IMG/VR virus record: IMGVR_UViG_3300046009_006318 | Location: 1-24,722 of that record | Source of the DNA: a virus | DNA length: 24,722 bases | Reading direction: 5' to 3' (one strand) | Shown here: positions 1-19,824 of the stretch, piece after piece | Layout of the letters: each line of letters begins with the position of its first letter | Position numbering within the stretch: the stretch's first letter is position 1 | Translations under genes and position numbers: made by a program | The notes under the pieces: generated by a model | Databases searched by the model: none | What the model saw: only the letters and a program-made list of their open reading frames with translations | What the model was told of the DNA's origin: nothing

Positions 1-660
1 GAGAGCCAGATGTACCAGATGATCCACTTTCACCCGAAGTACCAGATGATCCAGATTCGCCAGATGTACCAGATAGTCCAGATGATCCAGATGATCCAGA
101 TTCGCCAGATGTACCAGATGATCCAGATTCACCAGATGTACCAGATGATCCAGATTCGCCAGATGTACCAGATGATCCAGATTCACCAGATGACCCAGAA
201 GAGCCAGATGTACCAGAAGAACCGCTCTCACCAGATGTACCAGATGAACCAGCTATCCCAGATGTACCAGACGAACCACTTTCACCCGAAGTACCAGAAG
301 AACCAGTTAACCCAGATGTACCAGAAGATCCAGAAGACCCAGATATCCCAGATGTACCAGAAGAACCGCTCTCACCAGATGTACCAGATGAACCAGCTAT
401 GCCAGAAGTACCAGATGAACCAGCTATCCCAGATGTACCAGATGAACCACTTTCACCCGAAGTACCAGAAGAACCAGTTAACCCAGATGTACCAGAAGAT
501 CCAGAAGACCCAGATATTCCAGATGTACCAGATGAACCAGCTATCCCAGAAGTACCGGAAGAACCAGCCATACCAGAAGTACCAGATGAACCAGCTATAC
601 CAGAAGTACCAGATGAACCAGTACCACCAGATGTACCAGATGTACCAGTACCCCCGGTTC
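1..660 (-). repeat. 9-bp/27-bp repeat tract encoding Gly-X-Y triplets, with a 144-171 bp tandem duplication
   Basis: Nearly the whole stretch is built from 9-base units that encode Gly-Thr-Ser-like triplets on the minus strand. At 46-200 the units group into 27-base blocks with a few base differences. A longer block starting at 211 (GTACCAGAAGAACCGCTCTC) recurs from 355, an offset of 144; after a 27-base insertion in the second copy the offset becomes 171 (AACCAGTTAACCCAGATGTA at 301 and 472). All offsets are multiples of 9, so the frame is kept. This pattern fits expansion by slippage or unequal recombination. Confidence 0.85.
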
Positions 661-856
661 CAGACCCAACTTCAACCCATGATGTTCCGGTATAATAATA
701 TAAACTTTGGCTTGGAGTTAAGTAAATTACATCACCTTCAGTAGCGATGAGAGTTGGAAAATCATCATATCGAGGTAGATTTAAGTATTCGTTCAGAGTT
801 ACACCTATGAGAGATGCATCACTGTCCTCAGTTATAATCTTTTTCCAATCAAGCAC
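1..856 (-). CDS. Collagen-like Gly-Thr-Ser repeat fibre protein, C-terminus cut by window edge
   Basis: The frame is open from a GTG codon at 854-856 to position 1, giving 285 residues with the C-terminus outside the window. The GTG directly follows an in-frame TGA and sits 7 bases after a GGAG ribosome site (complement of 864-867); I see no in-frame ATG nearby, so GTG is the best start. Residues 1-63 form a non-repetitive head beginning MLDWKKIITEDSD, with a hairpin-like GDVIYL...YYYTGTSWVEVG segment of a kind common at the head of phage fibre proteins. From about residue 64 it is almost entirely Gly-X-Y triplets (GTS, GSS and similar) to the edge. Role inferred: trimeric tail fibre or virion decoration, because Gly-X-Y repeats form collagen-like triple helices in phage fibres. 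It lies 55 bases downstream of a glycosyltransferase gene and resembles the fibre at 2030-4234. Its adhesive or trimerising C-terminus is not visible, so exact function is open. Confidence 0.85.
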   Translation of the reverse strand, partial: MLDWKKIITEDSDASLIGVTLNEYLNLPRYDDFPTLIATEGDVIYLTPSQSLYYYTGTSWVEVGSGTGGTGTSGTSGGTGSSGTSGIAGSSGTSGMAGSSGTSGIAGSSGTSGISGSSGSSGTSGLTGSSGTSGESGSSGTSGIAGSSGTSGIAGSSGTSGESGSSGTSGISGSSGSSGTSGLTGSSGTSGESGSSGTSGIAGSSGTSGESGSSGTSGSSGSSGESGSSGTSGESGSSGTSGESGSSGTSGESGSSGSSGLSGTSGESGSSGTSGESGSSGTSGS

Positions 857-897
857 TCAGAGTCTCCAAATGAAGGTTTAAAATTATATATAAATAT
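857..897 (-). promoter_or_regulatory. Upstream region with GGAG ribosome site and shared A/T element
   Basis: This gap between the glycosyltransferase stop and the GTG start at 856 holds a GGAG ribosome site (complement of 864-867, 7-base spacer). Upstream, at 885-897, is the element read on the minus strand as ATATTTATATATA. The identical 13-mer lies at 4265-4277 before the other collagen-like gene, and a related form lies near 21804-21813, each about 30 bases from the start codon. It may be a phage promoter, but in an AT-rich genome chance is a real alternative. I do not assign it to a sigma class. Confidence 0.3.
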
Positions 898-911
898 CAA
901 AAAAAAGATTA

Positions 912-2021
912 TTAAATATCTATTTTTAATACATCAGATATTGCTTTTATAACATCTTCAGCTGTTATTTGTTTGGTGCAAATAAATTGATTTTCTGTGC
1001 CTTTAAAAGAAGGACACCAATTCCAATCCCCAGCATCGAGCTTATGATTATTAAAACAACCATGGCATACATTTTCATTTATTATTCTTTTTGATGGTGT
1101 AAATTCTGAGTATTTTTCAGAAAACCCTGATATTAATACAGTGTCTATTCCAGTTGCCCATGCTAACCACGATAGCCCGCTACCCAGACCAATAAATAAT
1201 TTACTTTCTGCTAATTGGTATATTCTATCATTTAAGCTGTACTGGCCTGTTTTATCAGTAACTCCAGTAATTACTTCTGATCCCATCCAACCGTTATGTT
1301 CTTTTGTTATTAATAAAACTTCATAATTTTTTTCATTTAGAAAATCTATTACCTTCTGCCAAGCCCCAGGATTATTCCAATATTTAGATTTTGCAGTTGC
1401 ATGAATTCCAATACACACTTGATTTTTCTTTTCAATAATCGGTACATTCAGTTTAGGTCTTATCTCTGTGTATGATAATCCTAATATTTGAAATGCGGTA
1501 TCTTGAAGATTAAATTTTTTAAAATCATTAGGATTCATATCATAATTAATCAAATCTCCATCATAAAACCAACCTATTTTATATTGTGCGTATATATTAT
1601 CTACACTAGAACCCGGCTGTATGAAGGTTAAATTCGGATATTGTTGTTCAAACAAATTATTTATGAACCCAGAACAATAAACTTTACAATTATGTTTTTT
1701 TTGAAATTCATCTATAGCGGGTATCCATGCTAGGGTATCCCCTAAACTTGATGAACATAATTCTATTAATACAGCTTTATTGTTAAAATCTAAATTATGT
1801 TCATAAATTTTTAAATCATTACAATATAATTCAATACGCCAATCAATAAAATATTTTTTAGAACTTTTTGCCCATGAATTTATAGGTATCTCTGTTTGGT
1901 AATCAATTTTATTTGTTTTTTTATTTATAAATTTTACATTATATTTTTTTGTATCGCTTGCATTTCCTAAAATTTCTATAAATGCGCCATCTATAAAATG
2001 ACAATTTATTTTTAAATCCAT
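912..2021 (-). CDS. Glycosyltransferase, TibC/Aah autotransporter heptosyltransferase-like (GT-B fold)
   Basis: A 369-residue protein resembling the bacterial autotransporter heptosyltransferases TibC and Aah/BAHT. Those enzymes transfer heptose from ADP-heptose to serine or threonine hydroxyls in repeat-rich adhesins. Residues 1-80 form a beta-type head. A first Rossmann-like half carries SLGDTLAWIPAIDEFQKKHN (about 92-111) and VYCSGF. The second half carries GIHATAKSKYW and the nucleotide-sugar-side motif FIGLGSGLSWLAWA. The C-terminal part has C319-HG-C322, C336 and C348, matching in order the four-cysteine iron finger known in TibC. Donor and acceptor in the phage are not shown. The gene begins 8 bases after the stop of the collagen-like fibre gene and is followed by a second one, which suggests that the Thr/Ser-rich repeats are the acceptors (inference). 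ATG start at 2021; AGGA lies about 12 bases upstream. Another GT9-like specificity is possible. Confidence 0.83.
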   Translation of the reverse strand: MDLKINCHFIDGAFIEILGNASDTKKYNVKFINKKTNKIDYQTEIPINSWAKSSKKYFIDWRIELYCNDLKIYEHNLDFNNKAVLIELCSSSLGDTLAWIPAIDEFQKKHNCKVYCSGFINNLFEQQYPNLTFIQPGSSVDNIYAQYKIGWFYDGDLINYDMNPNDFKKFNLQDTAFQILGLSYTEIRPKLNVPIIEKKNQVCIGIHATAKSKYWNNPGAWQKVIDFLNEKNYEVLLITKEHNGWMGSEVITGVTDKTGQYSLNDRIYQLAESKLFIGLGSGLSWLAWATGIDTVLISGFSEKYSEFTPSKRIINENVCHGCFNNHKLDAGDWNWCPSFKGTENQFICTKQITAEDVIKAISDVLKIDI

Positions 2022-2029
2022 ATATGTTT

Positions 2030-4234
2030 TTATCCTATAATGTTAACCTTAACTGCATTTACTGGTATAACTGCATTGAAATCCATAGTAATTTGATTGT
2101 TTGATGTAAAATAAATATCTGGGTATACACGCTCATACGGTGCAGTATTTTCACGAACCATGACAAATACATGCTTTGAATTTAAATCATGTGTTATTGT
2201 ATAAACTTGTTCTACGCCATTACCTACATTTTGTGTATAAACAGTACCAAGACTACTCGTAAATGGAACTACATTTACTACATATTGGTCTGGGGTAGGT
2301 GGAACATTAAAATTCAATGTCACATCATTTACTGTAGTGTAGTAAATATCTGGTATTACATTTTCATAACTAGAGAATGAGCTTGATTCTCTTATATATA
2401 CAAGCGCTTCGCGTGTATTAAAGTTGTGTGTTATTGTAAATTGGTCAAGAATTCCATCACCAATAACCGTTGAATAGCTAGAAGTATTATAGTTTAGAAT
2501 TGATGCGGATATCTGGTTAAATGTGATTGCTGCAGGTGTGAAATCTAAGTCAACCGATTCAGATGTTGCATAATATATTGTTCCAAGAATTTCATCATCA
2601 AACGATGAATCGAATGTAACCACTCCAACATCTTGATATCCTGTATTATGTGTTATAGTGTATTCAGATCCACCGTTTCCTAATACATATCCGGATATAA
2701 ATTGACTTGGTGCGTTACCAGATGTACCTGCACCAGTAGTTCCTGATGTTCCGGTTGTTCCAGATGTTCCAGATGTTCCCGCGCTACCTGATGTACCCGA
2801 TGTTCCAGACGTGCCTGAAGTTCCTGATACACCGGAGCTACCAGATGTTCCTGATGTTCCAGACGTGCCTGAAGTTCCTGATATACCGGAGCTACCAGAT
2901 GTTCCTGATGTGCCCGAGGTTCCCGATGTTCCCGATACACCGGAGCTACCAGATGTTCCTGATGTTCCTGTTGTTCCCGATGTTCCCGATACACCAGAGC
3001 TACCAGATGTTCCTGATGTGCCTGTTGTTCCCGATGTTCCCGATACACCGGAGCTACCAGATGTTCCTGATGTGCCTGCTGTTCCCGATGTTCCCGATGT
3101 TCCCGATATACCGGAGCTTCCAGATGTACCAGATACACCCGAGCTGCCAGATGTTCCTGATGTTCCCGCTGTGCCAGATGATCCAGCAGCACCAGATGTT
3201 CCCGATGTTGCGAATGTATCACCCGATGTTCCCGATGTCCCGGATACTCCTGAGCTACCAGACGTTCCCGATGCTCCCGAGCTGCCAGATGTTCCTGCTG
3301 TTCCAGAAGAGCCAGATGTTCCCGATGCTCCCGAGCTACCGGATGTACCAGATGCACCCGAGCTACCGGATGTACCAGATGCACCCGAGCTACCGGATGT
3401 ACCAGATGCACCCGAGCTACCGGATGTACCAGATGCACCCGAGCTACCGGATGTTCCTGCTGTTCCAGAAGAACCAGATGATCCAGCAGCACCAGATGTT
3501 CCCGATGTTGCAAATGTATCACCAGATGTTCCAGAAGATCCACTTGCACCCGATGTTCCAGAAGATCCACTTGCACCCGATGTTCCAGATGTTCCAGACG
3601 TTCCAGAAGATCCACTTGCACCCGATGTTCCAGATGTTCCAGATGATCCCGCGATTCCTGAAGTACCAGATGTTCCAGCTGTTCCAGCTGTTCCAGATGT
3701 TCCAGATGTTCCAGATGTTCCCGTAGCACCCGAGGTTCCTGAAGTTGCGAACGTATCACCAGATGTGCCAGATGTACCAGAAGGACCAGATGTACCAGAA
3801 GTACCAGAAGTTGGAGCTGGTCTTGTTGATCCAGTTGGTCTGCTTCCTGTAACTTCTATTGAATAAACAAAGAAATCACCAGTAACAGTATTTATATATA
3901 AAGTACCAATTCCACCAGTTCCACCAAATATGGGTGGTGCTATGGGATCTACCGTACCATGCTGTAATACTGCGATTGATGCAGATGCAGGTGTTGTCTC
4001 ATTTTTAATAGTTGGACGCGTTGTAGCTGGGTCTATATAAACTGAAATTTGTGATGAATCGGGTAAATTTGTTTTTAATTTTGATCCAATTTCCAAACTT
4101 CCGGATATTTTTAAGTCTGCTACATAACTACCAGTGCCAAACAATAACGTTTTGTTATCGTTTGGATCTATTTGTGCAAGCCGTTGAAATGACTGTGACA
4201 CATATAAATTTGACAAATCTCTGGTAATTGGCAT
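2030..4234 (-). CDS. Collagen-like Gly-Thr-Ser repeat tail fibre protein with three C-terminal beta repeats
   Basis: A 734-residue protein in three parts. Residues 1-141 are a non-repetitive head with phage-fibre-like phrases (LLFGTGSYVADLKISGSLEIG, GTLYINTVTGDFFVYSIEVTG). Residues about 142-508 are Gly-X-Y triplets, mostly GTS, GSS, GAS and GVS, interrupted three times by GDTFATSGTSG. Residues about 516-734 contain three diverged repeats of 60-75 residues, each with YTITHN or a variant, then a V-x-V strand, then IYYTT or IYFTS and a final D/N-F strand; this beta module is common at the C-termini of phage fibres. Predicted role: trimeric fibre with a triple-helical shaft and distal binding or trimerisation domains. 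Proline is nearly absent from the triplets, so stability may depend on Thr/Ser modification (inference). ATG at 4232-4234 follows GGAG with a 6-base spacer. The next gene downstream is a glycosyltransferase. Confidence 0.88.
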   Translation of the reverse strand: MPITRDLSNLYVSQSFQRLAQIDPNDNKTLLFGTGSYVADLKISGSLEIGSKLKTNLPDSSQISVYIDPATTRPTIKNETTPASASIAVLQHGTVDPIAPPIFGGTGGIGTLYINTVTGDFFVYSIEVTGSRPTGSTRPAPTSGTSGTSGPSGTSGTSGDTFATSGTSGATGTSGTSGTSGTAGTAGTSGTSGIAGSSGTSGTSGASGSSGTSGTSGTSGASGSSGTSGASGSSGTSGDTFATSGTSGAAGSSGSSGTAGTSGSSGASGTSGSSGASGTSGSSGASGTSGSSGASGTSGSSGASGTSGSSGTAGTSGSSGASGTSGSSGVSGTSGTSGDTFATSGTSGAAGSSGTAGTSGTSGSSGVSGTSGSSGISGTSGTSGTAGTSGTSGSSGVSGTSGTTGTSGTSGSSGVSGTSGTTGTSGTSGSSGVSGTSGTSGTSGTSGSSGISGTSGTSGTSGTSGSSGVSGTSGTSGTSGTSGSAGTSGTSGTTGTSGTTGAGTSGNAPSQFISGYVLGNGGSEYTITHNTGYQDVGVVTFDSSFDDEILGTIYYATSESVDLDFTPAAITFNQISASILNYNTSSYSTVIGDGILDQFTITHNFNTREALVYIRESSSFSSYENVIPDIYYTTVNDVTLNFNVPPTPDQYVVNVVPFTSSLGTVYTQNVGNGVEQVYTITHDLNSKHVFVMVRENTAPYERVYPDIYFTSNNQITMDFNAVIPVNAVKVNIIG
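2700..3810 (-). repeat. 9-bp unit tract encoding the collagen-like shaft
   Basis: The tract is made of 9-base units reading Gly-Thr/Ser/Ala-Ser on the minus strand. At 3333-3440 there are four perfect tandem copies of a 27-base unit (GAGCTACCGGATGTACCAGA then TGCACCC on the plus strand), followed by a partial copy. Another 27-base unit containing CCAGAAGATCCACTTGCACC repeats between about 3534 and 3630. The GDTFATSGTSG interruptions fall near 3200, 3505 and 3740. The unit lacks stops in most frames, so several long overlapping open frames appear here; they are artefacts. Confidence 0.9.
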
Positions 4235-4277
4235 CTACATCTCCATTAACAATAATATTTGGCGTATATATAAATAT
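4235..4277 (-). promoter_or_regulatory. Upstream region of the fibre gene: GGAG ribosome site and shared 13-mer
   Basis: A GGAG ribosome site (complement of 4241-4244) lies 6 bases before the ATG of the 734-residue fibre gene. The 13-mer ATATTTATATATA (minus strand, 4265-4277) is identical to one before the other collagen-like gene and overlaps the stop codon of the upstream nuclease-ATPase gene. Its position about 30 bases from the start suggests a promoter for the fibre module, but this is inference from three sites. Confidence 0.3.
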
Positions 4278-7200
4278 TAGAAATATATTTTTGAAAAACC
4301 TTCATCTTTATAAATTTCTATTTGCTTCTCCGCCATGTCTTTTAATGAATCTATGTGTGAAATCACCAGTATAAATTGATATTGTGTCTTCAAAAATTGA
4401 AACAGATTGTATAAAGATGACATATTTTCGCTATCTAATACGCCAAATCCTTCATCAATTGCCATAAAGTTTGGTCTTGGAAGATTTGAATAATTAATCA
4501 AAGCGTTCCGTATAGCAATCGCAGATATAAATTTTTCCATACCGGAAGCTAATTCCAACGCCCAGAATTTATCATTATCGTATATAATATATATGTTTAT
4601 ACTTTTACCATCGGATTCCAACGCAATTCTAAAGTCCGCCAGATAGCTAAGTATATCATTGACTTCATTTTCAATTTGTGGTAATATATTTGAAATTAAA
4701 TCATAGGGAACGCCATTTCGGTTAGTAGCTTTAATATATAAATCATATATCTTAAATTGCTCTTCTAATTTTTCAAGTTTTAAAATTCCATCCTTTCCAA
4801 GTTTTATAGAATTTTCATGTATTTTAATTTGACTGTTTGCGTTTGATAACTCATTCTCAATTGAGGATAACTGTAGATTTAACTGTTGCTTCTTATTAGT
4901 ATATTGATCTATAAGCTTAGTTATTTCTATATTATGTGTTATCGCCTTTTCATTTTGAATGTACTTGCTATGCTTCTCTTTTAGCTGACTCAGCGCAATT
5001 TCAATTTTATTTTCTAATAAATCTATTTCCTTTAGCTTGTTATCACATTCCATTAAATTGTTATTTAATGTCAAGTACTCTGTTTTACTAATTGTATATT
5101 GTTCATACTCATTTAATGCGTTTTTGTACGCCATCGATTCAGATTTAAGACTCTCCAGTTCATTATAAACTTCTGTTTTCTTTGCCAATAATAAGTCTAA
5201 TTCATCTTTTGCTTTGAATGCATCTTGAACAAATTCATTGTTTACACAGTGTTTGCAATTTGGATTATATTCATGTGTATCTAGCTTATCTATTTTTGAT
5301 TGTAGATTAGCTTCTATGATATTTATTTTTTCTATTTTTAAATTTAAATCATTGATTTTAGTATCATATTTTTCTTTTGTTTCTTTATTTAAACGAAGAC
5401 GAGTTTCATCTGTATTGTTTATAGAAATGCGCATAGAATTTATAGCATTTTGAATAGAGTCACGGCGTTGATTTATCTCTTCTTTTTTTAATTTACATGT
5501 ATTTAATTTTCCAGTTAAATCTGCAGTTTCTTTGTTTAATGTATCAATATTCAATGATATAATATGCTCATCAATTGGATGTAGCTCTATAGTGTGTTGT
5601 ATTATTTTTTCATCAGCAATTTCTAATTGTTTTAGTATTTCCTCTTTTTGTTTTGAAACAGATTTAGCCTGTTCGGTATATATCTTTTTATTAGCCAGCC
5701 CATCTGCAATTTGAGTGGAAAAATCCTGTTTTATGTAATCTTTTATAAGACCTTTGATTTGATTTGCTTCAGTTGTTGCCAACTGAGTTAATTCCTCAAA
5801 CACATTTAAATCTAAGAATTGAGAAAGCAAGTCCTTTCGTTCACGCTGTGCCTTATCTACAAAGTTTGAATTATTATTTTGAAGTGATAATGTTGTCAAA
5901 ATAAATTCATCATAGTTTCCTAAATATTCACGTATAATATTATTTGTATCATCACGATCTTGCCCACTTAAGTCTATCTCAGCATTTTTATCAAAAGTGT
6001 AAAATTTTACGTCAACCTTAACATGGCCCTTTTTATCTTTAATTCCAATTCTTTCTATAAAATATTGTTTTCCATGTATTTCAAACACAAATTTACAGGT
6101 AAACGCATCCTTTTTGTTATTCAAAACTTGTGCTGCTTTAAAAGTTCTGGAGCATTTATCGAAAATACAGAAGGTCAATGCATCCAATACGCTTGATTTA
6201 CCAGCCGCATTGTTTGCAAATAACCCGTATATTCCGTTCATATTTTTAAAATCGATTTTATTACCTTCGCCATACGAAAACATATTTGAAAATTCAAAAT
6301 GAATTGGAACCCATGTAATATTCTTTATTGATTTTGAAATATCAATATTAGTATTTAATTGACGATTTATATTACATATACCATCTTTAGTGTGTTGGTC
6401 TAGTGCATTTGTTTTTTCTATGAAATTTAGAATTAGATTATTCTGGTATTCAACGTCTCTAACATCACCAACTTTTATTTTATTTATAACAGAAGTATCG
6501 GCCTTTGATGTCATTTTTGTAACCTTTACTTCTTCGATCTTTACTTTTGTTTTTAAAGAGGTAACAAGTTTTGTTATATCGGCTTGTGCTGTATCATATG
6601 CTTTTATTCGTATAGTTGGCTTTTTAACAAAGTGAGTAGGTAATTCAACAAATTTACCGTTTTTTACTTCTAATGTATAATACCCATGATCATTTGGAAT
6701 TTCAACAAATTTAGAAAACCCAGTCTTCATATACCACAGTACATAACCGTGTGATAGTGATTCTCCAAAGTTTTGCTGTACAGTACTCCCGCAATAGCAT
6801 ATTCTTTTATTTTCGTCCAAGTACTGATACTTGTGTATGTCACCTAGTAATACATAATCAAATCCGTTTAACATATTCAACGTAATTTTATTATTACGTA
6901 TTTCAATTCCTTGTTCAGTTTGTGCTGTATCAATCGCCCCATGAAAAAACAAAACTTGTTCATTTTTAGACTTTTTTGGAACTTTATAATTTCCAATATC
7001 ATCTGTTATTGACCAAACAACAAAGTCTAAAGTACGAGTTCGATAGATTCCCGTATCACGCAAAAAATATAAATTAGGATGATTTAAGCTGTTTACGATT
7101 GGTGTTAGCGCATCCAACCTGTTTTTATTATTCAAGTTACAATCGTGATTTCCAAGAATCATAAACGTTGGTGCTATATCTGCACACGCCTTTAAAAACT

Positions 7201-7429
7201 TGTAAGTTACCTGAATTAATTCAGGTGACATGTCTAGTTTAGCATGTACGATGTCTCCACCAAGATATATAGCAAGTCCTGGATGATGTTCCTTTTCCTC
7301 TTTTATACTTGCATAAAGTTTTTCAAACACGGCCTCATATTCTGGGTGACGTTTTGTATTTCTTATATGAACATCTGCCAGATGAACAATGTGTGTAATT
7401 GACAAATCTATATTTTGTAAAACTTTCAT
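4277..7429 (-). CDS. Fused Mre11-Rad50 type recombination nuclease/ATPase (gp47-gp46 / SbcD-SbcC fusion)
   Basis: A 1050-residue single polypeptide with two enzyme halves. Residues 1 to about 280 are a calcineurin-like metallophosphoesterase of the Mre11/SbcD/gp47 family: D19-V-H21, GGD (57-59), GNHD (93-96), H163 and GDIH (196-199) are the expected metal ligands. Residues about 370-1050 are an SMC-like Rad50/SbcC/gp46 ATPase. Its Walker A is GLFANNAAGKSS (402-413), a long coiled coil follows with the zinc hook C725-KH-C728, and then come a signature-like LASGMEKF (960-967), Walker B FMAIDEG (about 988-994), the D-loop GVLD and the switch histidine H1025 in VISHID. Known role: resection of DNA ends for recombination and repair; in T4 it supports recombination-dependent replication. 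T4 and most bacteria encode the two halves separately, so the fusion is unusual. The start overlaps the primase stop by 4 bases (ATGA), implying translational coupling. Confidence 0.93.
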   Translation of the reverse strand: MKVLQNIDLSITHIVHLADVHIRNTKRHPEYEAVFEKLYASIKEEKEHHPGLAIYLGGDIVHAKLDMSPELIQVTYKFLKACADIAPTFMILGNHDCNLNNKNRLDALTPIVNSLNHPNLYFLRDTGIYRTRTLDFVVWSITDDIGNYKVPKKSKNEQVLFFHGAIDTAQTEQGIEIRNNKITLNMLNGFDYVLLGDIHKYQYLDENKRICYCGSTVQQNFGESLSHGYVLWYMKTGFSKFVEIPNDHGYYTLEVKNGKFVELPTHFVKKPTIRIKAYDTAQADITKLVTSLKTKVKIEEVKVTKMTSKADTSVINKIKVGDVRDVEYQNNLILNFIEKTNALDQHTKDGICNINRQLNTNIDISKSIKNITWVPIHFEFSNMFSYGEGNKIDFKNMNGIYGLFANNAAGKSSVLDALTFCIFDKCSRTFKAAQVLNNKKDAFTCKFVFEIHGKQYFIERIGIKDKKGHVKVDVKFYTFDKNAEIDLSGQDRDDTNNIIREYLGNYDEFILTTLSLQNNNSNFVDKAQRERKDLLSQFLDLNVFEELTQLATTEANQIKGLIKDYIKQDFSTQIADGLANKKIYTEQAKSVSKQKEEILKQLEIADEKIIQHTIELHPIDEHIISLNIDTLNKETADLTGKLNTCKLKKEEINQRRDSIQNAINSMRISINNTDETRLRLNKETKEKYDTKINDLNLKIEKINIIEANLQSKIDKLDTHEYNPNCKHCVNNEFVQDAFKAKDELDLLLAKKTEVYNELESLKSESMAYKNALNEYEQYTISKTEYLTLNNNLMECDNKLKEIDLLENKIEIALSQLKEKHSKYIQNEKAITHNIEITKLIDQYTNKKQQLNLQLSSIENELSNANSQIKIHENSIKLGKDGILKLEKLEEQFKIYDLYIKATNRNGVPYDLISNILPQIENEVNDILSYLADFRIALESDGKSINIYIIYDNDKFWALELASGMEKFISAIAIRNALINYSNLPRPNFMAIDEGFGVLDSENMSSLYNLFQFLKTQYQFILVISHIDSLKDMAEKQIEIYKDEGFSKIYF

Positions 7430-8364
7430 GTAGACAATTCCATCTTTATTAAAGAATCAAATGAGCACAGCGTAGCAGATTCCATCTGTGTTAAAAATTC
7501 AGAAGTTCCGATTTCACTTGGGTCTTTACCTTCCAAGTTTATCAAATACACGTTTAATCCTTGATTTAAAAAATACTTTATAAATTTCAATGCATCCTTA
7601 ATTGCATCAGAATCCAATGCTATATAAATAGTTTGAACTCTTTCTGATATTATTTTCTCCTTTAAATACGGAGAAATTGTTTTACCCAACAACGGTATAG
7701 CATTTATTTTTGCTGCTATTGCATCAAATACACCTTCGGTTAATATTAACGGCATCTTCCAGTTAATATAAAGCTCAAACGGTATTATATTTTTTGAAAC
7801 ATTTGGGTTCTTATATTTTATAAATGAATCAGTTAAAATAGAACGCCCAACAAAATAATTTAAATTACCATCGCCATCGTAGCTGGGTATGATTACCATG
7901 TTTTTATATTCGCCGGAATCACATATGCCTATATTATAGCGTTTTATATCTACTGCTGATATGTTTCTATTTTTTAGATATATCAGTGCACGTTTTATTG
8001 TTGGATTTTTTAACGATGACTTTTTTATTGAAGACAGTGCTACAAATTCATTGGGTAATTCCAATTTTGGTATTGTTAGCTCTACTTTTGTAGATGGTTT
8101 ATAATCGCTTACGATTTTATTTAATTCCGTAAATAGTTCTCTGTCAACTTTAAGTTTTTTAAACAGACTGTGTATTGTTTTTCCTTTTTCATTAGAAATC
8201 CAACAGTGCCATGGATTTTTACCATCCACAGTAGCCAAGTTTATTTCAAGTTTTGGTTTATAATGAGAACAAAACGGTGAAAAAAATGCGTAGTTCGTTC
8301 CGGAAGTTGCACGGCCTTCTCCCAGAACCTTTTCTAATAAAACCAATAATTTATAATTTACCAT
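7426..8364 (-). CDS. DNA primase, TOPRIM type (T4 gp61-like)
   Basis: A 312-residue primase expected to make RNA primers at the phage fork. The N-terminus holds a zinc-ribbon-like segment, S29-PF-C32-SHYKPKLEINL followed by H53-C54-WI-S57. The usual arrangement is two C-x2-C pairs, so the first and last cysteines are replaced by serine. The TOPRIM catalytic core is intact: E210-G in LILTEGVFDA, D251-S-D253 in IALDSDA and the later GKDPSE motif (279-284). The linker containing FVGRSI...KYKNP is typical of phage primases. ATG start at 8364 lies 6 bases after the endonuclease stop, without a strong ribosome site. The stop overlaps the nuclease-ATPase start. Whether it still binds zinc, perhaps through H34 and H53, cannot be decided here. 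Identification as a TOPRIM primase is firm; the gp61 assignment is by resemblance. Confidence 0.88.
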   Translation of the reverse strand: MVNYKLLVLLEKVLGEGRATSGTNYAFFSPFCSHYKPKLEINLATVDGKNPWHCWISNEKGKTIHSLFKKLKVDRELFTELNKIVSDYKPSTKVELTIPKLELPNEFVALSSIKKSSLKNPTIKRALIYLKNRNISAVDIKRYNIGICDSGEYKNMVIIPSYDGDGNLNYFVGRSILTDSFIKYKNPNVSKNIIPFELYINWKMPLILTEGVFDAIAAKINAIPLLGKTISPYLKEKIISERVQTIYIALDSDAIKDALKFIKYFLNQGLNVYLINLEGKDPSEIGTSEFLTQMESATLCSFDSLIKMELST

Positions 8365-8370
8365 AAAAAC

Positions 8371-8769
8371 TTACATACATTCATTAATCCATTCAATCGG
8401 TATATGCTTTTTAGCGTATTTCCATCCAAACTTTTCACATACATCAGCATATGTTGTTTTTGAATTTTTGCTTATTTTAGCATTTGGATTTGAAAAGACA
8501 AACCTAATGTCAAGTTCTGGGTATTGAGTGTGGATAAGTTCATGTTTTTTTCTATCATCCAATACCCACCTGCCTTTAGATTCTATGTACATTTTACTAC
8601 CATCTTTTTTATTTAAAATGAAATCAGGTGTATATGTACGCTTCTTTTCTGGTTGAATATACGAAATTTTTTCGGATTCATAGCTATATTTTTTTCCAGA
8701 TTCAACTAATTGTTCTTCAAGTAATCCCTCAAGACCACTTCTAAACCCTTTTTTTATTCCAATGTCCAT
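8371..8769 (-). CDS. T7 endonuclease I-type Holliday junction resolvase
   Basis: A 132-residue protein close to the full length of T7 gp3 (149 residues) and similar along its length. Shared landmarks are SGLE at the start, TYTPDFIL, ESKG, DDRKKH, the stretch PELDIRFVFSNP, and IPIEWI at the end. The catalytic residues known in T7 (E20, D55, E65, K67) correspond to E14, D49, E63 and K65. Known role: structure-selective cleavage of four-way junctions and branched DNA, which resolves recombination intermediates and replicating concatemers before packaging; it acts as a dimer. The ATG at 8767-8769 lies 2 bases after the stop of the LamG-containing structural gene, so it is probably co-transcribed with the tail genes. 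It is followed by primase and the Mre11-Rad50 fusion, forming a compact DNA-metabolism cassette. Confidence 0.95.
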   Translation of the reverse strand: MDIGIKKGFRSGLEGLLEEQLVESGKKYSYESEKISYIQPEKKRTYTPDFILNKKDGSKMYIESKGRWVLDDRKKHELIHTQYPELDIRFVFSNPNAKISKNSKTTYADVCEKFGWKYAKKHIPIEWINECM

Positions 8770-8771
8770 AA

Positions 8772-10760
8772 TTACTCTACGTCAAATCTTACTATTATGT
8801 TTAAGTCTTTATCTTGATATTTTGGTAACGGATTCACCAGTTTTGCAACTGCAACGAGTTCATACATGCTGTTGTACAGTCCAATCGTTGTAAAATAAAC
8901 ATTAAAAGCACTCTCAGAAACAAATGATTTAAACTCCGCACTGTTTGCCAGATTATTTTTCTTTAATGTTGGATTTGATGAATAATTAAACTCGTTTGCA
9001 CGAATTGGTATTACTATTTCATGTTGAAATATTTTCTTTTCCGATTTAAACTTTCCAGAAAACCCATAATAATTATTTAATTCATCTTCATAAACAAGAC
9101 TACCAGTTTTCCCAAGTAAAATATTCTTATACGTTGGTATTAACGATGATAATACAACGGTGCCTGTATTGTAATATATATTGCCAATATTATTTGTTTG
9201 TAGTGCTTGGAGATTATGGCAATTTGTATTTGAAAGTGACTGTATTTCTTGCGATGTTAATGCTTTCTTATAAACACGTACTTCATCCAAATTTCCATAA
9301 TATTCTGTTAATGATTTTTTTAATGAACCAATCAAGATATTAGATGAATTATACACACTACCATTTACTTCACAACTTCCAGTAGAATTTAGTGCCCCAT
9401 TTACATACATGTAAAAAATAGATCCGGACTTCTGGCATACAACATGATTATAACTCCCTGTTATTGATACTGATGAGGTTATAAATGCCTCATCGGTTCC
9501 ACCATATCTTGAAAAATATAGTTTACCAGCATCAGAACCAGTATTAATCATTCTTATTGAAAACGGATATACACCAGACAATGTTTTTAAGTTTCTAAAA
9601 TCAAAACTTTTTGTAAATTTATTTTTTATTACTTGCGATGTGTATTCTTGCTTTGCAATAATATATGAGTATGCACTGCCAGTATTCTGCGCATTTAAAG
9701 ATGCACTTATAAAAAATGAAATGGCGAAATCCGTATCATTAACAAATGTATACTCATCTATGTGTTTAATCTCGATTGGCAATCCAGTACAACGCAATGC
9801 AGTTCCAACTGGCTCTACAATTGAACCGGATGATAAAAACCCATTTGAATAGTAAGCCCCAGAAATTGCAGTTGCATGGTTTTTGTTTATAGATAAATCT
9901 TCTATATTAGAATATTCTAATGTTGATTCAATTTTTGCTTTATATTTTTCATTAAACCCAAGATATAATAACAAATTAGAATCAGAAACAAATGATTGCG
10001 TATTTATATTTGTTGTATAAATATTTGATATTCCATCATCGAGGATCTGTATGGGAGATGAAATACTACCTGATAAGCTGTAATCATTTAATTGAAATGA
10101 GTTACGTTTTATACCGTTTCCAAATAAGTCTTGCCGTACTTGCAATACAGAACACGATTCATATAAATTACGTACTGTATTTTTGTTTATAAAATATCCA
10201 GCATTATAATTCAATTCGTCAATATTTGATTTATAATATGTGTGATTTATAACGGCATGTATTAAGTGAGGATCAAACGATTGTGTTATGTTTGGTGCAG
10301 TATAAATTTGAGAGTTTAACGGTAGTTTTCCCAATGGATATTGCGATTTGTTTAAATATCTACCCTGGAATACATCGAATATGTATGGTGTTTCTATTTT
10401 AGAATTTTTTTTGTTTGATGGTTCTAAAAATAAACAACTGCATACACCTGCAAGTGTTTTTGTGAGTATTATTTTGTATATACCCTTATTCTGGGATGTA
10501 CTCTTTCCGTAAATCCATTCAATTGATACACCTTCGCCATTTGATATTAATGTGCAATCATATCCTAATGTATAAAAATCATCACACCCTCTAGGAGCTA
10601 CATCTTTTACAAAACTAATATTAGTGATAAATTTATATTTCTTTAAAAACTGTTCGCTAGAAAATGTCCATGATTTGTATACATCATATTTTGTTATAAT
10701 GTACTCACCACGTTTTATTTTTTTAAAGATTTTTAATCTATTATTATAATTTCTAGCCAT
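8772..10760 (-). CDS. Tail-array paralogue with inserted LamG/concanavalin-like domain
   Basis: A 662-residue protein, the last member of the eight-gene structural array. Residues about 145-250 match a motif set I know from large phage tail proteins: a his-containing VINHTYY segment, SVLQVRQDLFGNGIKRNSFQL and ILDDGISNIY. Residues about 262-512 form a LamG/concanavalin-like jelly roll: LLYLGFN at its start, SYNHVVCQKSGSIFYMYVNG in the middle and the classic ending GNLDEVRVYKKALTSQEI (489-506). The array's own sequence then resumes with NIYYNTGTVVL, ANEFNYSSNPT (588-598) and the terminal block FTTIGLYNSMYELVAVAKL (623-641). The LamG unit therefore appears inserted into an array-type protein and may bind host glycans (inference). 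ATG at 10758-10760; no strong ribosome site. It probably sits in the baseplate or tail tip, but its exact place is unknown. Confidence 0.75.
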   Translation of the reverse strand: MARNYNNRLKIFKKIKRGEYIITKYDVYKSWTFSSEQFLKKYKFITNISFVKDVAPRGCDDFYTLGYDCTLISNGEGVSIEWIYGKSTSQNKGIYKIILTKTLAGVCSCLFLEPSNKKNSKIETPYIFDVFQGRYLNKSQYPLGKLPLNSQIYTAPNITQSFDPHLIHAVINHTYYKSNIDELNYNAGYFINKNTVRNLYESCSVLQVRQDLFGNGIKRNSFQLNDYSLSGSISSPIQILDDGISNIYTTNINTQSFVSDSNLLLYLGFNEKYKAKIESTLEYSNIEDLSINKNHATAISGAYYSNGFLSSGSIVEPVGTALRCTGLPIEIKHIDEYTFVNDTDFAISFFISASLNAQNTGSAYSYIIAKQEYTSQVIKNKFTKSFDFRNLKTLSGVYPFSIRMINTGSDAGKLYFSRYGGTDEAFITSSVSITGSYNHVVCQKSGSIFYMYVNGALNSTGSCEVNGSVYNSSNILIGSLKKSLTEYYGNLDEVRVYKKALTSQEIQSLSNTNCHNLQALQTNNIGNIYYNTGTVVLSSLIPTYKNILLGKTGSLVYEDELNNYYGFSGKFKSEKKIFQHEIVIPIRANEFNYSSNPTLKKNNLANSAEFKSFVSESAFNVYFTTIGLYNSMYELVAVAKLVNPLPKYQDKDLNIIVRFDVE

Positions 10761-10777
10761 AATATTTCATTTTCTAC

Positions 10778-11869
10778 TTATTTTATTTCTAAATTTACCT
10801 GGAACATGTACATCTCATTGAAATTTTTCAGAAGTGGTTTTGACAATTTAGCAACTGCTAATAATTGATATTTGTTATTGTAAAATCCAATTGTTGTGAA
10901 GTATGTATTTGGATCATTTATGAATTGATTTGTTTTTATTCTACCGTACTGATCGTAAAATGTTGGATTTGTAGTATAATTCATTTGATCAAAACTTATT
11001 TTTATAGGCATAGTCATTACTTGACGCTCAATTACCCCATGTATATATGACCAGTATTTATATGTTGAATTATTAAAGTTATAGATAGACCCAGAAATAG
11101 AGCGTAAAAATCGTTCAGCATTTTTTCCGTTTGTGTAAGATGCAGTTTGTGTATTAAATGAAAGTTTTGTATCGAGTACATTTCCATCAAATAACGCGAT
11201 TGCTTCTTTCGGGTATAACTTTCCAAAATATATAGGAGACCCGTTTTCATAATAAATTCCGTTTTCCAGTGAACCGGAGACTAGATTGCATATATCGTAT
11301 GAATGGAAATCAAAGACAGACTGGCTTTGAAAATATTCTAGATTTATAATATCAGAATATCTTGAACTTGTGTACGGATTTGTTAATTTTATTTCGAATA
11401 ATTCAGAATACAGAGTATCTTGACTAGAAGATTTATTAAATTTTAATGCATAAAAATGCGTATAATCATCTAATACCCCTTGTCCAAATATTGATCCATA
11501 TTTTCTATATATTGCTTTAGTCTCGGTCTTTTCTGTTGGATATTCAATTGATGTACCGTATCCGTTTGCATGGCCATATTCTATTGTAAATTCTTTAGTA
11601 GGAGTACCACAACTTTTTGTAGAATACACATTTAGTGAATAATCTCTAAAGTTTGTAGTATCTTGATTTGATTGAGTATAAAAATTTGAAAGTATTGGTT
11701 GATTATTATTCCAAATTGGTATTATCTTTTTAGATGTATCATACTCGATTAACTCTTCAACTATTTGAGTATATGTTGATGATAAGTTATCTACATTTAA
11801 AAAATCAAATAACCAATTGACACCATAGTCACTTAAAAACCGGTTGTTATCGTACTCAGATTTTGTCAT
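10778..11869 (-). CDS. Tail-array structural paralogue, short form
   Basis: A 363-residue protein, the shortest array member. It keeps the shared landmarks in order: FTIEYGHANGYGTS (compare AYGNYYGSGS in relatives), TKAIYRKYGSI, YALKFNKSS, CNLVSGSLENGIYYENG, a strand corresponding to YGKIYPDYGIIVLDA (here FGKLYPKEAIALFDG), RFLRSISGSI, NYTTNPTFYDQ and the terminal block YFTTIGFYNNKYQLLAVAKLSKPLLKNF. The central helix-like segment with GNFELALAKLNG seen in other members is replaced by SELFEIKLTNP. Function is not recognised; I infer a tail or baseplate structural subunit from the context and from the size of the family. Its ATG at 11867-11869 lies a single base beyond the stop of the preceding 767-residue gene, so the two are probably translated together. 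Confidence 0.78.
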   Translation of the reverse strand: MTKSEYDNNRFLSDYGVNWLFDFLNVDNLSSTYTQIVEELIEYDTSKKIIPIWNNNQPILSNFYTQSNQDTTNFRDYSLNVYSTKSCGTPTKEFTIEYGHANGYGTSIEYPTEKTETKAIYRKYGSIFGQGVLDDYTHFYALKFNKSSSQDTLYSELFEIKLTNPYTSSRYSDIINLEYFQSQSVFDFHSYDICNLVSGSLENGIYYENGSPIYFGKLYPKEAIALFDGNVLDTKLSFNTQTASYTNGKNAERFLRSISGSIYNFNNSTYKYWSYIHGVIERQVMTMPIKISFDQMNYTTNPTFYDQYGRIKTNQFINDPNTYFTTIGFYNNKYQLLAVAKLSKPLLKNFNEMYMFQVNLEIK

Positions 11870-11870
11870 A

Positions 11871-14174
11871 TTAGTACTTCAAATTAACAACAAATTTTAA
11901 TGATTCATTGAAAGTTTTCTTCATTGGTTTACTCAGCTTTCCAACTGCCACTAACTGGAAGTTATCATCATATAAACCAATTGTTGTTATGTATGATACT
12001 GGTTCATAAAACCATTCCCTATTCTTTAAAGAGTACGGTGTAAGTTTTCCTTCAAATGGAGCAGTTTGAGCGTACCTAAACAATGGAGAACGATTACGTG
12101 AGTAATAGTATGATGGATTTGTTGAATAATTAAATTCAGATTCATCCACATTTATTCTTATTGTTTGTAAAATAGATGCTTCCGTTTGGCGTAGCATAAA
12201 TGGATATGTGGTCCCTCTTGTTGGTGTTGTAACAGCAGATCCACTTATTGACTTAAACAATCGGAGTGGATTCATGCCATCATAATTTGATTGCGTTACA
12301 ATTCCATAATTAAGTTCAGTATTCAGTTTGTTTGCATCTAATAATATCAATCCATACCCAGGATAAATTTTTCCATATACAGTAGGGGCTGACGGGTTAT
12401 GTACACCATCTTGCAAACTACCAGAAACAATATCATAATCAGTTGGCGGTATATACGCAGATCTGTATCTATATGAATCTTTTGTATCGCCTTCTAATAA
12501 TATACCCTGCGTGATGCTGGAATCTATTAACTTTATAACAGTATCGGACGTAGTATCCACCTCAGGAGAAGGGTTACCGTTTAGCTTTGCCAATGCTAAT
12601 TCAAAATTACCAGCATCTAATGAATTCTTTAATAATTTTGGATTAACTTGTATAGCGAATATTTTTTCGCTTTGCGCAAGTGGTATTAATTTCCTTAAAT
12701 CAGCTGTTGCATTCAAACCCGGTCTGTAATAAAAATCAGAGCCACTTGATACTATATACTGATTGAAATCGTTTACATTTGCTGAAATGTATGTATCATC
12801 ATCAAGTTTAAATGGAGGTAACAAATCCGATGTAACTCCCAACGTTAACTCTTGTAGTAAATACAAACTCTGACTCAAGCTGTTATCCGTGAACAGTAGC
12901 TTTTTATTTATTGAACGATTTCCTGTTAGAGAAACAAACATAGAATATACCGATTTGGAATACCCATACTGACGTCTATCATCGGATAATTTTATAGTAC
13001 CTGCGCCGTCAAAATCTCCGTAATAGATAGAAAACATCGTATCATTAGAATCACAACTTCCAGAAATTACATTTAATTTATAAGATTTTTCTGTATTAGT
13101 TTGTAATGAACTTGTATAGAACTCATATATTGTACCATCACCGCGCCATACACCACTTGTCTTACTAGTCAATGCAGTTATTGATGCGTCAGCTGCTTGT
13201 AATGGCTTAAATACATATATTGATTCTGCAGTTCTAGAAATTTCCTTTGAATAAACAACTTGTTCAGCAGATCCCGTTATAACAGCACCAGTTCTCTTGT
13301 TGCGTCTGCCTTTTATTTGATATCCAACTAACGTTGTAATTTGTGTGCCACGTGGTCCATCTGAAATAGATTCAACAAACCTCACAGGTCCAGTCAAAAC
13401 ATCCTCAAACTCATCTACAAATCTAGATGAACTAACAAGTTCAAATCGTTTTGGTTCAAACGGTAAAAATGGACCAGTTTGTAGCGTTCTATATCCAATT
13501 TCTTGGAATGTTGTTTTGAAATCTTTTTTATAATCACTAAAATCTACAAATGACCCGGTTAAACGGGATATTTCCAAATTGTCCGTGGCTCTTCCAGAAG
13601 TTCCAGATGTTCCGGTTGGCCCATAACAAGGACTGTTTGGATTTTGTTTATTAGTTCCCGGAAATACCTTTTCTTCAAAATCTAATTTTTCACACTTATC
13701 ATCATAATTGTATTCATACAATGTTATGCGCCGTATGTCAGGTATTTCAGACTTTCCATCCTTTGGTATTACAACAGCCAAGCGTTTTGTATTGTTGTAT
13801 TTGTAGGGCTTTCCTGCATCTAAAATTTCTCGCCGTTCATCTGGTGTAAGCGTTGTATCTTTTAATCGCCTAATGGCTAATTCATCTATAACAGTATCAT
13901 TTAAAAAGTATGGATTTCCTTCATAACCCTGTTCTCTTACATTTTCCTCAAATCCACGTTGATCATCTAATAAAAATGCACCATATTCATATGGATCATT
14001 AAGATCATATTTTTGTAGAACTGATATTGGTTGACGTGACTGTTGAACACCGGGTCCGTTATTTCCGTTTGGGTATGCAACATACCACAGAGTTACCCTA
14101 GTATTAACATATATTATACCGTCTAAGGTAACTGTATTACCTATACCCGATGTACCAGTCTGTGCACTTACCAT
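11871..14174 (-). CDS. Tail-array structural paralogue, long form with unique N-terminal region
   Basis: A 767-residue protein, the longest array member. Residues 1 to about 230 have no counterpart in the other members: a head with TGTSG at 6-10, charged segments such as LTPDERREILDAGKPYKYNN, and a small GTSGTSG (188-194) like a seed of the collagen-like repeats elsewhere in the window. The array part follows: ISGSCDSNDTMFSIYYGDFDGAG, YGYSKSVYSMF, KIFAIQVNPKLLKNSLDAGN, FELALAKLNGNPSPE, YDIVSGSLQDGVH, YGKIYPGYGLILLDANKLNT, RLFKSISGSA, EFNYSTNPSYYYS and the terminal block SYITTIGLYDDNFQLVAVGK then LSKPMKKTF. I infer a structural tail or baseplate subunit; the N-terminal part may give it a specific docking role. 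ATG start at 14174 with GGAA about 6 bases upstream. Function beyond that is not recognised. Confidence 0.8.
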   Translation of the reverse strand: MVSAQTGTSGIGNTVTLDGIIYVNTRVTLWYVAYPNGNNGPGVQQSRQPISVLQKYDLNDPYEYGAFLLDDQRGFEENVREQGYEGNPYFLNDTVIDELAIRRLKDTTLTPDERREILDAGKPYKYNNTKRLAVVIPKDGKSEIPDIRRITLYEYNYDDKCEKLDFEEKVFPGTNKQNPNSPCYGPTGTSGTSGRATDNLEISRLTGSFVDFSDYKKDFKTTFQEIGYRTLQTGPFLPFEPKRFELVSSSRFVDEFEDVLTGPVRFVESISDGPRGTQITTLVGYQIKGRRNKRTGAVITGSAEQVVYSKEISRTAESIYVFKPLQAADASITALTSKTSGVWRGDGTIYEFYTSSLQTNTEKSYKLNVISGSCDSNDTMFSIYYGDFDGAGTIKLSDDRRQYGYSKSVYSMFVSLTGNRSINKKLLFTDNSLSQSLYLLQELTLGVTSDLLPPFKLDDDTYISANVNDFNQYIVSSGSDFYYRPGLNATADLRKLIPLAQSEKIFAIQVNPKLLKNSLDAGNFELALAKLNGNPSPEVDTTSDTVIKLIDSSITQGILLEGDTKDSYRYRSAYIPPTDYDIVSGSLQDGVHNPSAPTVYGKIYPGYGLILLDANKLNTELNYGIVTQSNYDGMNPLRLFKSISGSAVTTPTRGTTYPFMLRQTEASILQTIRINVDESEFNYSTNPSYYYSRNRSPLFRYAQTAPFEGKLTPYSLKNREWFYEPVSYITTIGLYDDNFQLVAVGKLSKPMKKTFNESLKFVVNLKY

Positions 14175-14192
14175 TTAATTTCCATAAAAATA

Positions 14193-15665
14193 TTAATAAT
14201 CAACCCTAACATTAATAATTATCGAATTATTAAAACTTTTGCGCTGTGGTCTTGATAATTTAGCAACTGCTATTAAATTATATACAGAGTCATATAATCC
14301 AATAGATGTGATATAACTCTCTGGTCTTACGTAAAAATCAGTACTTCCAGAATAAAATGCCTTTACTCTCAGATCGCCTGATTTACCATCATAATAAGAT
14401 GGATTTGTTGAATAATTAAACTCTTCTGTGCCAAGTATGCACTTATAGAAGATGGAATTAATTGTTTGTTTTATATCAAACCGTGGAGTTGTTACAGTTC
14501 CCAGTTGTTGTGCTAATAAAGTAGTTTGTATATCAGGGTAGTACGGATTTGTTATATCTGGATTTCCATCTGCAAGTATAGCATATGTCTGTAAACTAGC
14601 AGACACTGCTTTATATAAGCGCTTACTGTTATTAGAAGTTACATTACTACCCGTTTGCAAATTTAAGTTTAAAAGATTATTTAATTTATCGGCATCTAAA
14701 ATTACAATTCCAGTATCATAATATATTTTACCGTATATGATGGGTAGATTGTTTTTTAAATGTACTCCATCTATTAAACTACCAGACACAATATAATCAA
14801 ACAATTGTGGAGTTGATATCTGTGTTGCTTTTTTAGTTAATTCAATAAATGAATAAATTTCTCGATCATAATATAAATCACGTGTTAAATTTGGATCAGT
14901 GTTATTATTAGACGCATATAAATTTATTTTATATTGTCTTTCAAGTTGATTTATGGAAGAACTTCCGTTCATTTTTGCCAGTTTTAACTCAAATGATCTA
15001 TTATTTGCTATACCATCATATAGATAATCAGCACTAACATTAATCGCAAACACGGAATCAACATTTCCAGAGATTTCTATCTTGTCAGCTGTTGGATTTT
15101 CATTTGAAAATGTATTCTGTTTTAATGAATGATATACCGCTTTTGTTGGATATGAAAAATCATAGTTTTGCGTTGCATCGTCATATGTTATTATAGTTCC
15201 ATCACTAGACCCACTGCCATAATAATTACCGTATGCTATATCAAATATTCTATATTCATCTTTACTTTTGATATCTGTTACCAATATGGGAGCAAACCCG
15301 TTTAAAAATTGGTATGATACACTAGCTGTGATATCGGGGGCTATATAGCATTTAGTTAAGTAATCAAATGATTCTTGTTGAACGCTTGACGTATAAAGGT
15401 TTTGTAATGCACCCGCCCCGTGTAACTCATAAAAATATTCTTCGTATACAGATTTTGTTACAATTGTTTTATTTACGGGTATTATTTCCGTTTGATCAAA
15501 CTGTTTAAATATTTTAAAATTACTAGATATACTTTCTGCTATAGATGCACTATGCTCAAATATAAAATAATCATCCCATAGTTTTTCTAACTCTTTTGAT
15601 TTATTTTTAAAATCATCCAAGCGCTGTGTTGTATTAAACCAATCTTTATATGAAAAAGTACTCAT
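14193..15665 (-). CDS. Tail-array structural paralogue
   Basis: A 490-residue array member. Residues 1-60 are charged and probably helical (KDWFNTTQRLDDFKNKSKEL). Then come the shared landmarks: LYTSSVQQESFDYL, FDIAYGNYYGSGSSDG, TKAVYHSLKQN, VFAINVSADYLYDGI, SFELKLAKMNG, FDYIVSGSLIDGVH, YGKIYYDTGIVILDADKLNN, RLYKAVSASL, EEFNYSTNPSYYDG and the terminal block ESYITSIGLYDSVYNLIAVA then KLSRPQRKSF. Its aspartate- and asparagine-rich middle (residues about 255-275) is longer than in its neighbours. I do not recognise a named family; tail or baseplate location is inferred from the array and from the large baseplate-type gene upstream. Its ATG overlaps the stop of the preceding 430-residue gene by 4 bases (ATGA at 15662-15665), so translation is probably coupled. 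Confidence 0.8.
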   Translation of the reverse strand: MSTFSYKDWFNTTQRLDDFKNKSKELEKLWDDYFIFEHSASIAESISSNFKIFKQFDQTEIIPVNKTIVTKSVYEEYFYELHGAGALQNLYTSSVQQESFDYLTKCYIAPDITASVSYQFLNGFAPILVTDIKSKDEYRIFDIAYGNYYGSGSSDGTIITYDDATQNYDFSYPTKAVYHSLKQNTFSNENPTADKIEISGNVDSVFAINVSADYLYDGIANNRSFELKLAKMNGSSSINQLERQYKINLYASNNNTDPNLTRDLYYDREIYSFIELTKKATQISTPQLFDYIVSGSLIDGVHLKNNLPIIYGKIYYDTGIVILDADKLNNLLNLNLQTGSNVTSNNSKRLYKAVSASLQTYAILADGNPDITNPYYPDIQTTLLAQQLGTVTTPRFDIKQTINSIFYKCILGTEEFNYSTNPSYYDGKSGDLRVKAFYSGSTDFYVRPESYITSIGLYDSVYNLIAVAKLSRPQRKSFNNSIIINVRVDY

Positions 15666-18585: not shown

Positions 18586-18586
18586 G

Positions 18587-19822: not shown

Positions 19823-19824
19823 TA

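Follow-up and report, generated by a model that had tools for sequence, protein, structure and literature searches.

A single-chain Mre11-Rad50 protein in a viral sequence record, probably the gp47-gp46 equivalent of a T4-like phage

The window analyzed here is the whole of IMG/VR virus record IMGVR_UViG_3300046009_006318, a viral sequence of 24,722 bases with no additional contig. Its minus strand carries, at 4277..7429, a gene with an ATG start, a TAA stop, and zero internal stops, the 1050-aa product of which (~120 kDa) joins an Mre11-type nuclease to a Rad50-type ATPase. A first-pass annotation had placed such a fusion at these coordinates in one uninterrupted frame, which is correct; the strand, which it left unstated, is minus, and the plus-strand translation of 4277-7429 contains many stops. 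Pfam Metallophos matches residues 13-198 (39.5 bits, cut-off 21.5), and the Rad50-type family AAA_23 matches residues 381-608 of the same frame (44 bits, cut-off 27). SMC_N reaches 36.1 bits at residues 796-1043, under its cut-off of 40, and the SbcC-like PHROG phrog_77 matches residues 275-1048 with an E value of 5.2e-48. A sequence search of the PDB with the fusion protein returned separate Rad50 or Mre11 chains, with zero fusions among the matches listed.

The domain anatomy was examined with an AlphaFold2 model built from a 46-row alignment, which comprises the window protein and 45 relatives (44 from the 80 loci of a full-length scan and one from two genome-contig loci). The model has a mean predicted local distance difference test score (pLDDT) of 81 and a predicted template modeling score (pTM) of only 0.48, so that its individual domains are credible, whereas their relative placement is unreliable. 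The Mre11/SbcD-type nuclease domain spans residues ~11-247 (6689..7399, minus strand, as are all features of the chain) and is followed by a capping-domain-like part at residues ~248-306 (6512..6688), assigned from the secondary structure of the model. Together, residues 12-306 match the fold of Staphylococcus aureus SbcD (7dog_B, which covers nuclease plus capping domain and aligns through residue 306; Z 23.7, 274 residues aligned, root-mean-square deviation (rmsd) 3.9). After a weak stretch at residues 307-318, where model confidence is lowest, two helices (326-340 and 345-359) form a helix-loop-helix (HLH) element at residues 326-359 (6353..6454). By analogy with the description in the available text of PMC3175470, the HLH is predicted to hold the Rad50 coiled coil at its base. 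The Rad50 N-lobe with Walker A and Q-loop occupies residues 372-541 (5807..6316; Pfam AAA_23), the coiled-coil arms seen as helices in the model occupy residues 542-902 (4724..5806), and the C-lobe with the SGME signature, Walker B/D-loop, and switch His occupies residues 903-1050 (4280..4723), as indicated by Pfam, the alignment, and the fold match. The zinc hook CKHC, C725-K-H-C728, lies within the arms at 5246..5257, and both of its cysteines are present in 46/46 rows. Residues 373-1050 match the fold of Escherichia coli SbcC (7yzo_D; Z 31.2, 349 residues aligned, rmsd 3.8). The fold search listed mostly Rad50/SMC chains, because one domain fills the list.

Because the second HLH helix ends at residue 359 and Rad50 starts at residue 372, the true interdomain linker in the model is ~360-371 (6317..6352), a stretch of 12 residues. 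The first-pass annotation had placed the linker at residues 280-370, most of which is folded (capping strands to 306, HLH at 326-359). The comparison of linkers across relatives that it proposed gives the same 12-residue length in 46/46 rows. A 1:1 stoichiometry of the two activities and the tethering of nuclease to ATPase would follow logically from a single chain of this predicted kind, and a linker of 12 residues would probably favor pairing of the two halves in cis. It is quite improbable that one chain is made but two are functional, with an internal start or a protease cut freeing a separate Rad50. Met306, which adjoins the lowest-confidence stretch and is preceded by a weak ribosome-site-like AAGG, could serve as such a start, but it is conserved in 5/46 rows, and a Met anywhere at 296-330 is found in only 5/46. 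Met383 is present in 46/46 rows but lacks a ribosome-site-like sequence and is located ~11 residues into the Rad50 part. The short linker of fixed length also argues against separation of the halves.

The catalytic motifs of both halves are present in the window protein. On the Mre11 side these are D19-V-H21, G58-D59, G93-N94-H95-D96, H163, and G196-D197-I-H199; on the Rad50 side they are Walker A (N407-GKS412), Q517, the signature S962-G-M-E965, Walker B (D992-E993), and the switch H1025. All 22 of the active-site, hook, and signature positions tested are invariant across the 46 rows. The complete Rad50-type ATPase described in the first-pass annotation (Walker A, CKHC, signature, Walker B, and switch His) could thus be mapped in full. 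Its list of Mre11 motifs is likewise present, but the set is not fully canonical: GDIVH has His for the third Asp of GDxxD, and GDIH has Asp for the second-last metal His of canonical GHxH. Both substitutions are invariant in 46/46 rows.

The fusion is real and not an accident of assembly. Three scans of viral contigs, using the full-length alignment, the nuclease part alone, and the ATPase C-lobe alone, together with a fourth scan, of genome contigs, yielded 234 loci. Each viral scan is represented by its best 80 relatives, out of 549, 585, and 509 confirmed, so the counts speak for the nearer relatives, and the loci of one contig can recur among the 234. Both ends of the profile lie in one frame at 207/234 loci, which represent 135 different protein sequences, or 99 clusters when grouped at 95% identity. 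At a further 26 loci, a single profile end is seen because the gene runs up to the edge of its contig; for L155 and L178, both among these, the frame closes 100 bases or less from that edge. Separate Mre11 and Rad50 genes, which the first-pass annotation had named as the finding that would speak against a fusion in close relatives, were found at none of the 234 loci. Moreover, IMG/VR record L002 is 100% identical to the window over 4952 bases, junction included, and carries residues 1-761 in one frame, although it may share the window's sample. The idea that assembly or a frameshift joined two adjacent genes is therefore hardly credible and is refuted for the group. It draws on the remaining locus, L015, where the frame is broken within the coiled coil but L014, with the same neighbors and coordinates, is intact, and on Listeria phage LMTA-57, which has a joined frame of 1009 aa whereas relatives ~98-100% identical to it are one base longer in that region and are listed with two genes. 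The fixed linker length, the 207 fused loci, and the identical junction in L002 all stand against it. The search for the same fusion in other phages that the first-pass annotation suggested is thus answered by these loci and by the named phage records described below.

Several individual loci merit separate mention. The joined frame of LMTA-57 (L094, 3851-6880) reflects either an error in the record or a change that occurred very recently. In the huge phage LR756508 (L004, 4950-9175), the fused gene is interrupted directly after GDIHK by an insert of ~1 kb with a 305-aa frame that weakly matches a TnsA-like endonuclease (27.2 bits, cut-off 26.5); the insert may be a self-splicing intron that carries a homing nuclease. 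At gathering scores, Rfam had zero matches in the window and the L004 locus, so the insert cannot be named as a known intron class. Two contigs binned in bacterial or archaeal metagenome-assembled genomes, L085 (CALBOT010000005.1) and L086, one of them binned as Candidatus Nitrosopelagicus, also carry the fusion gene. L085 is probably phage DNA that was misbinned or co-sampled, because its gene order of endonuclease I, primase, and fusion matches that of the window. A scan of plasmids gave two records with partial matches and zero fused genes; the plasmid fusions reported in the available text of PMC3175470 may be too distant for it.

In the window, the fusion gene is the third of three adjoining genes on the minus strand. 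A T7-type endonuclease I of 132 aa (8371..8769; PF05367, 156 bits; phrog_945) is followed by a DnaG-like primase of 312 aa (7426..8364; phrog_47, E 1.4e-38; TIGR01391, 45.3 bits, under its cut-off), the coding sequence of which shares its last 4 bases with the start of the fusion gene. Conservation of this arrangement was counted at the 80 full-length-scan loci (the best 80 of 549), restricted to those with enough upstream DNA. The primase is present at 78/78 loci, 77 by the script rule and the remaining one, L024, with an overlapping primase. Endonuclease I is present at 68/69, a LamG-type gene at 59/59, and a tandem-array gene at 52/52, and a 223-aa gene is within reach at only 29/47.

Positions 8772-21084 of the minus strand encode seven mutually paralogous proteins (363, 767, 490, 430, 543, 411, and 419 aa) that share a C-terminal module of ~50-75 residues (YITTIGLY...LLAVAKLSKPLKK) with an adjoining LamG-type protein of 662 aa. 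The seven gave zero Pfam or PHROG matches, and the block may be an array of tail or receptor-binding proteins that has expanded. At 2-4234 of the minus strand, immediately downstream of the fusion gene, a family 9 glycosyltransferase (912-2021) lies between two collagen-repeat frames resembling tail fibers. A tRNA scan of the window found zero tRNAs.

The phage that carries the gene can be placed through its relatives. Of 50,697 phage records searched, 413 match the fusion protein and only four do so over at least 80% of its length: Microcystis phage Mel-JY01, the interrupted LR756508, and LR756501 and LR756503, which have equal length and the same match. Mel-JY01, a cultured phage of 190 kb, is the closest named relative. 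Its protein WWT39521 (PP395634), annotated as 'AAA domain containing protein' and not as a fusion, is fused, is 42% identical over the full length, and lies behind a DnaG-like primase among the same kind of neighbors, with a GIY-YIG protein where the window has endonuclease I. The annotation of Mel-JY01 includes RecA, a family B polymerase, a gp41-type helicase, a clamp loader, a T4-like capsid, and a gp19 tail tube. Three profiles found one place each in its genome, and no second Mre11 or Rad50. Likewise, each of nine long relatives (74-177 kb) has one fusion place and one phrog_77 place. A Gp23 T4-type capsid protein was detected in 8/9 and RecA in 7/9, six of the latter over the cut-off. 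The label T4-like is applied to the window because these relatives carry a T4-type capsid and RecA. The first-pass annotation had suggested that the fusion would help to define a phage lineage. The shared neighborhood (59/59, 68/69, and 78/78 loci) does mark one, but the fusion by itself does not, since giant viruses and jumbo phages that infect Bacteroidota have it too. Searches of open-access PMC found no literature on this phage clade or its fusion and no paper on Mel-JY01, a weak absence given that coverage.

These data suggest, with a probability of roughly 0.8, that the window protein is a single-chain Mre11-Rad50 enzyme (SbcD-SbcC, or T4 gp47-gp46) of a T4-like phage. The nuclease, capping, HLH, and linker parts and the Rad50 lobes with their coil and hook all lie in one frame, and their order from N to C terminus corresponds to the T4 operon, where 47 precedes 46. 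Because long relatives carry T4-type capsid and RecA genes, the gene most likely stands in for gp47-gp46 in a clade of T4-like phages. Several observations weigh against this reading. GDIH loses one canonical metal His, and SGME loses the second Gly of the ATP-binding cassette (ABC) signature; because of these substitutions, activity could differ from that of canonical enzymes. In the 24.7-kb window, there is no Pfam or PHROG match to capsid, terminase, RecA, or family B polymerase. A family B polymerase is found in only 3/9 long relatives, although these records may be fragments; a full T4-like replisome is thus established at most for some of them.

A mechanism can be proposed by analogy with gp46/gp47 and SbcCD. 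Two chains would pair through their Mre11 parts and ATP-bound Rad50 heads to give the usual two-plus-two head, with each HLH gripping the coil base of its own chain. The ATP-closed Rad50 heads would bind DNA ends, and ATP hydrolysis would open the head, allowing the Mre11 nuclease to clip and resect those ends while the zinc hook bridges DNA. The resulting 3' single strands could feed a phage RecA/UvsX-like recombinase for recombination-dependent replication and repair; a RecA-like recombinase was detected in most of the long relatives. The T4 record describes gp46/gp47 as required in recombination and host-DNA degradation, and the window enzyme may also contribute, alongside endonuclease I, to breaking down host DNA.

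That contribution of gp46/gp47 in T4, with an endonuclease I nearby in the window, also fits the notion that the protein is mainly a weapon or defense factor, such as a Lamassu-like SMC system or a destroyer of the host chromosome, rather than the phage's own recombination enzyme. In addition, when PADLOC was run on three window proteins, LmuB profiles matched the Rad50 part at 77 bits. Such matches are expected, however, because SMC and Rad50 share ancestry, and a Pfam scan of 17 window frames revealed no LmuA-like Lamassu effector. No Rad50-like gene other than this one was found in any of the nine long relatives, and its place is behind a primase gene. A weapon or defense role is thus unlikely, and the observations are better explained by a recombination enzyme of the phage itself.

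Fusions of this class have been known since 2011, so the novelty that the first-pass annotation implied does not hold up and the novelty of the fusion itself is low. In that year, Yoshida, Claverie, and Ogata reported Mimivirus R555 as an Mre11/Rad50 fusion and listed 12 more, with hosts that, in the available text, include Mimivirus, a Bacillus phage, plasmids, bacteria, and eukaryotes (PMC3175470). The same text describes ocean scaffolds in which R555 homologues have phage-like primases and endonucleases (gp3 of Yepe2 and others) as neighbors and suggests that many are phage-borne; the available text of PMC3655615 cites the paper in its reference list only. As far as that description goes, the primase and endonuclease I of the window make up the same neighborhood. 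Relationships among fused and split forms were examined in a tree of 23 rows, in which split pairs were joined end to end. One branch, with support of 100/99, separates 17 fused rows from six split pairs. The midpoint-rooted tree would fit one fusion event among the sampled rows, but support for this is weak because the branches are long, split pairs are few, and the pairs were strung end to end. We presume that gp3 of Yepe2 and its like are relatives of T7 endonuclease I.

What is new is that R555-like fusions from water metagenomes can be linked to a group of phages that have T4-type capsid genes, share a conserved gene block, and include one in culture. This link is a likely answer to the question raised in 2011 of which small viruses own the abundant aquatic R555-like genes, and the block of endonuclease I, primase, and fusion is a handy metagenome marker for the group. 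A natural, single-gene, 1:1 Mre11-Rad50 enzyme of ~120 kDa could also ease structural and single-molecule study of how the ATPase gates the nuclease. More tentatively, and at somewhat less than even odds, the R555-like fusions of water metagenomes may come largely from an undescribed T4-like clade, in which a single-chain enzyme with an invariant 12-residue linker wholly replaces gp47/gp46 and is locked in an operon of endonuclease I, primase, and fusion, and the phage and giant-virus fusions may share one origin. If so, an end-processing enzyme would have crossed between phages and eukaryotic viruses.

Comparison with characterized systems places the window protein among the fused forms. It fails both curated NCBIfam cut-offs for bacterial SbcC and SbcD (TIGR00618, 71.6 versus 478.5 bits; TIGR00619, 32.6 versus 77.65 bits). 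T4 gp47/gp46 have the same two predicted activities in the same order, but they are separate chains, as the first-pass annotation noted, of 339 and 560 aa in the T4 record, encoded with two small genes between them and bearing GHFH and SEGE motifs. The fusion of Bacillus phage 0305phi8-36, reported in 2011, lacks one P-loop segment and the capping/HLH part according to the available description (PMC3175470). Fusions also occur in the jumbo phages Tenacibaculum pT24, PTm1, and PTm5, Chryseobacterium MA9V-1, and Sphingomonas PAU (gp288), where the annotation reads DNA repair, DNA repair exonuclease, or metallo-phosphoesterase. Translation of pT24, PTm1, MA9V-1, and PAU showed that these four are single frames of 1301-1326 aa with the nuclease first. 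They lie on the fused side of the tree, yet in a separate clade distant from the window group. The available text of a jumbo-phage overview (PMC7824862) describes SbcC and SbcD as nearly universal in such phages and leaves fusion unmentioned.

The closest likeness is to R555 as described in the available text of PMC3175470. The order of domains in one chain is the same, capping and HLH parts are kept in both, and the Walker A, Walker B, D-loop, and coiled coil used there as criteria are all found in the window protein. Its model-based 12-residue linker falls inside the 9-12 residues estimated for such fusions. The metal-site departures of R555, His for the third Asp of GDxxD and Asp for His206, recur as well, the equivalence to Pyrococcus furiosus Mre11 His206 being judged from the motif. 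These departures are not exclusive to fused proteins, as the split T5-like PR1 pair has GDLH and fused PAU has GHIH, and GDIH was accordingly rejected as a marker of fusion. R555 is a giant-virus protein of 1351 aa, whereas the window protein has 1050 aa and a tailed-phage setting. Its best fold matches in BFVD are giant-virus proteins of similar length, from Tupanvirus (E 2.5e-76, 26% identity), Harvfovirus, Yasminevirus, and Catovirus.

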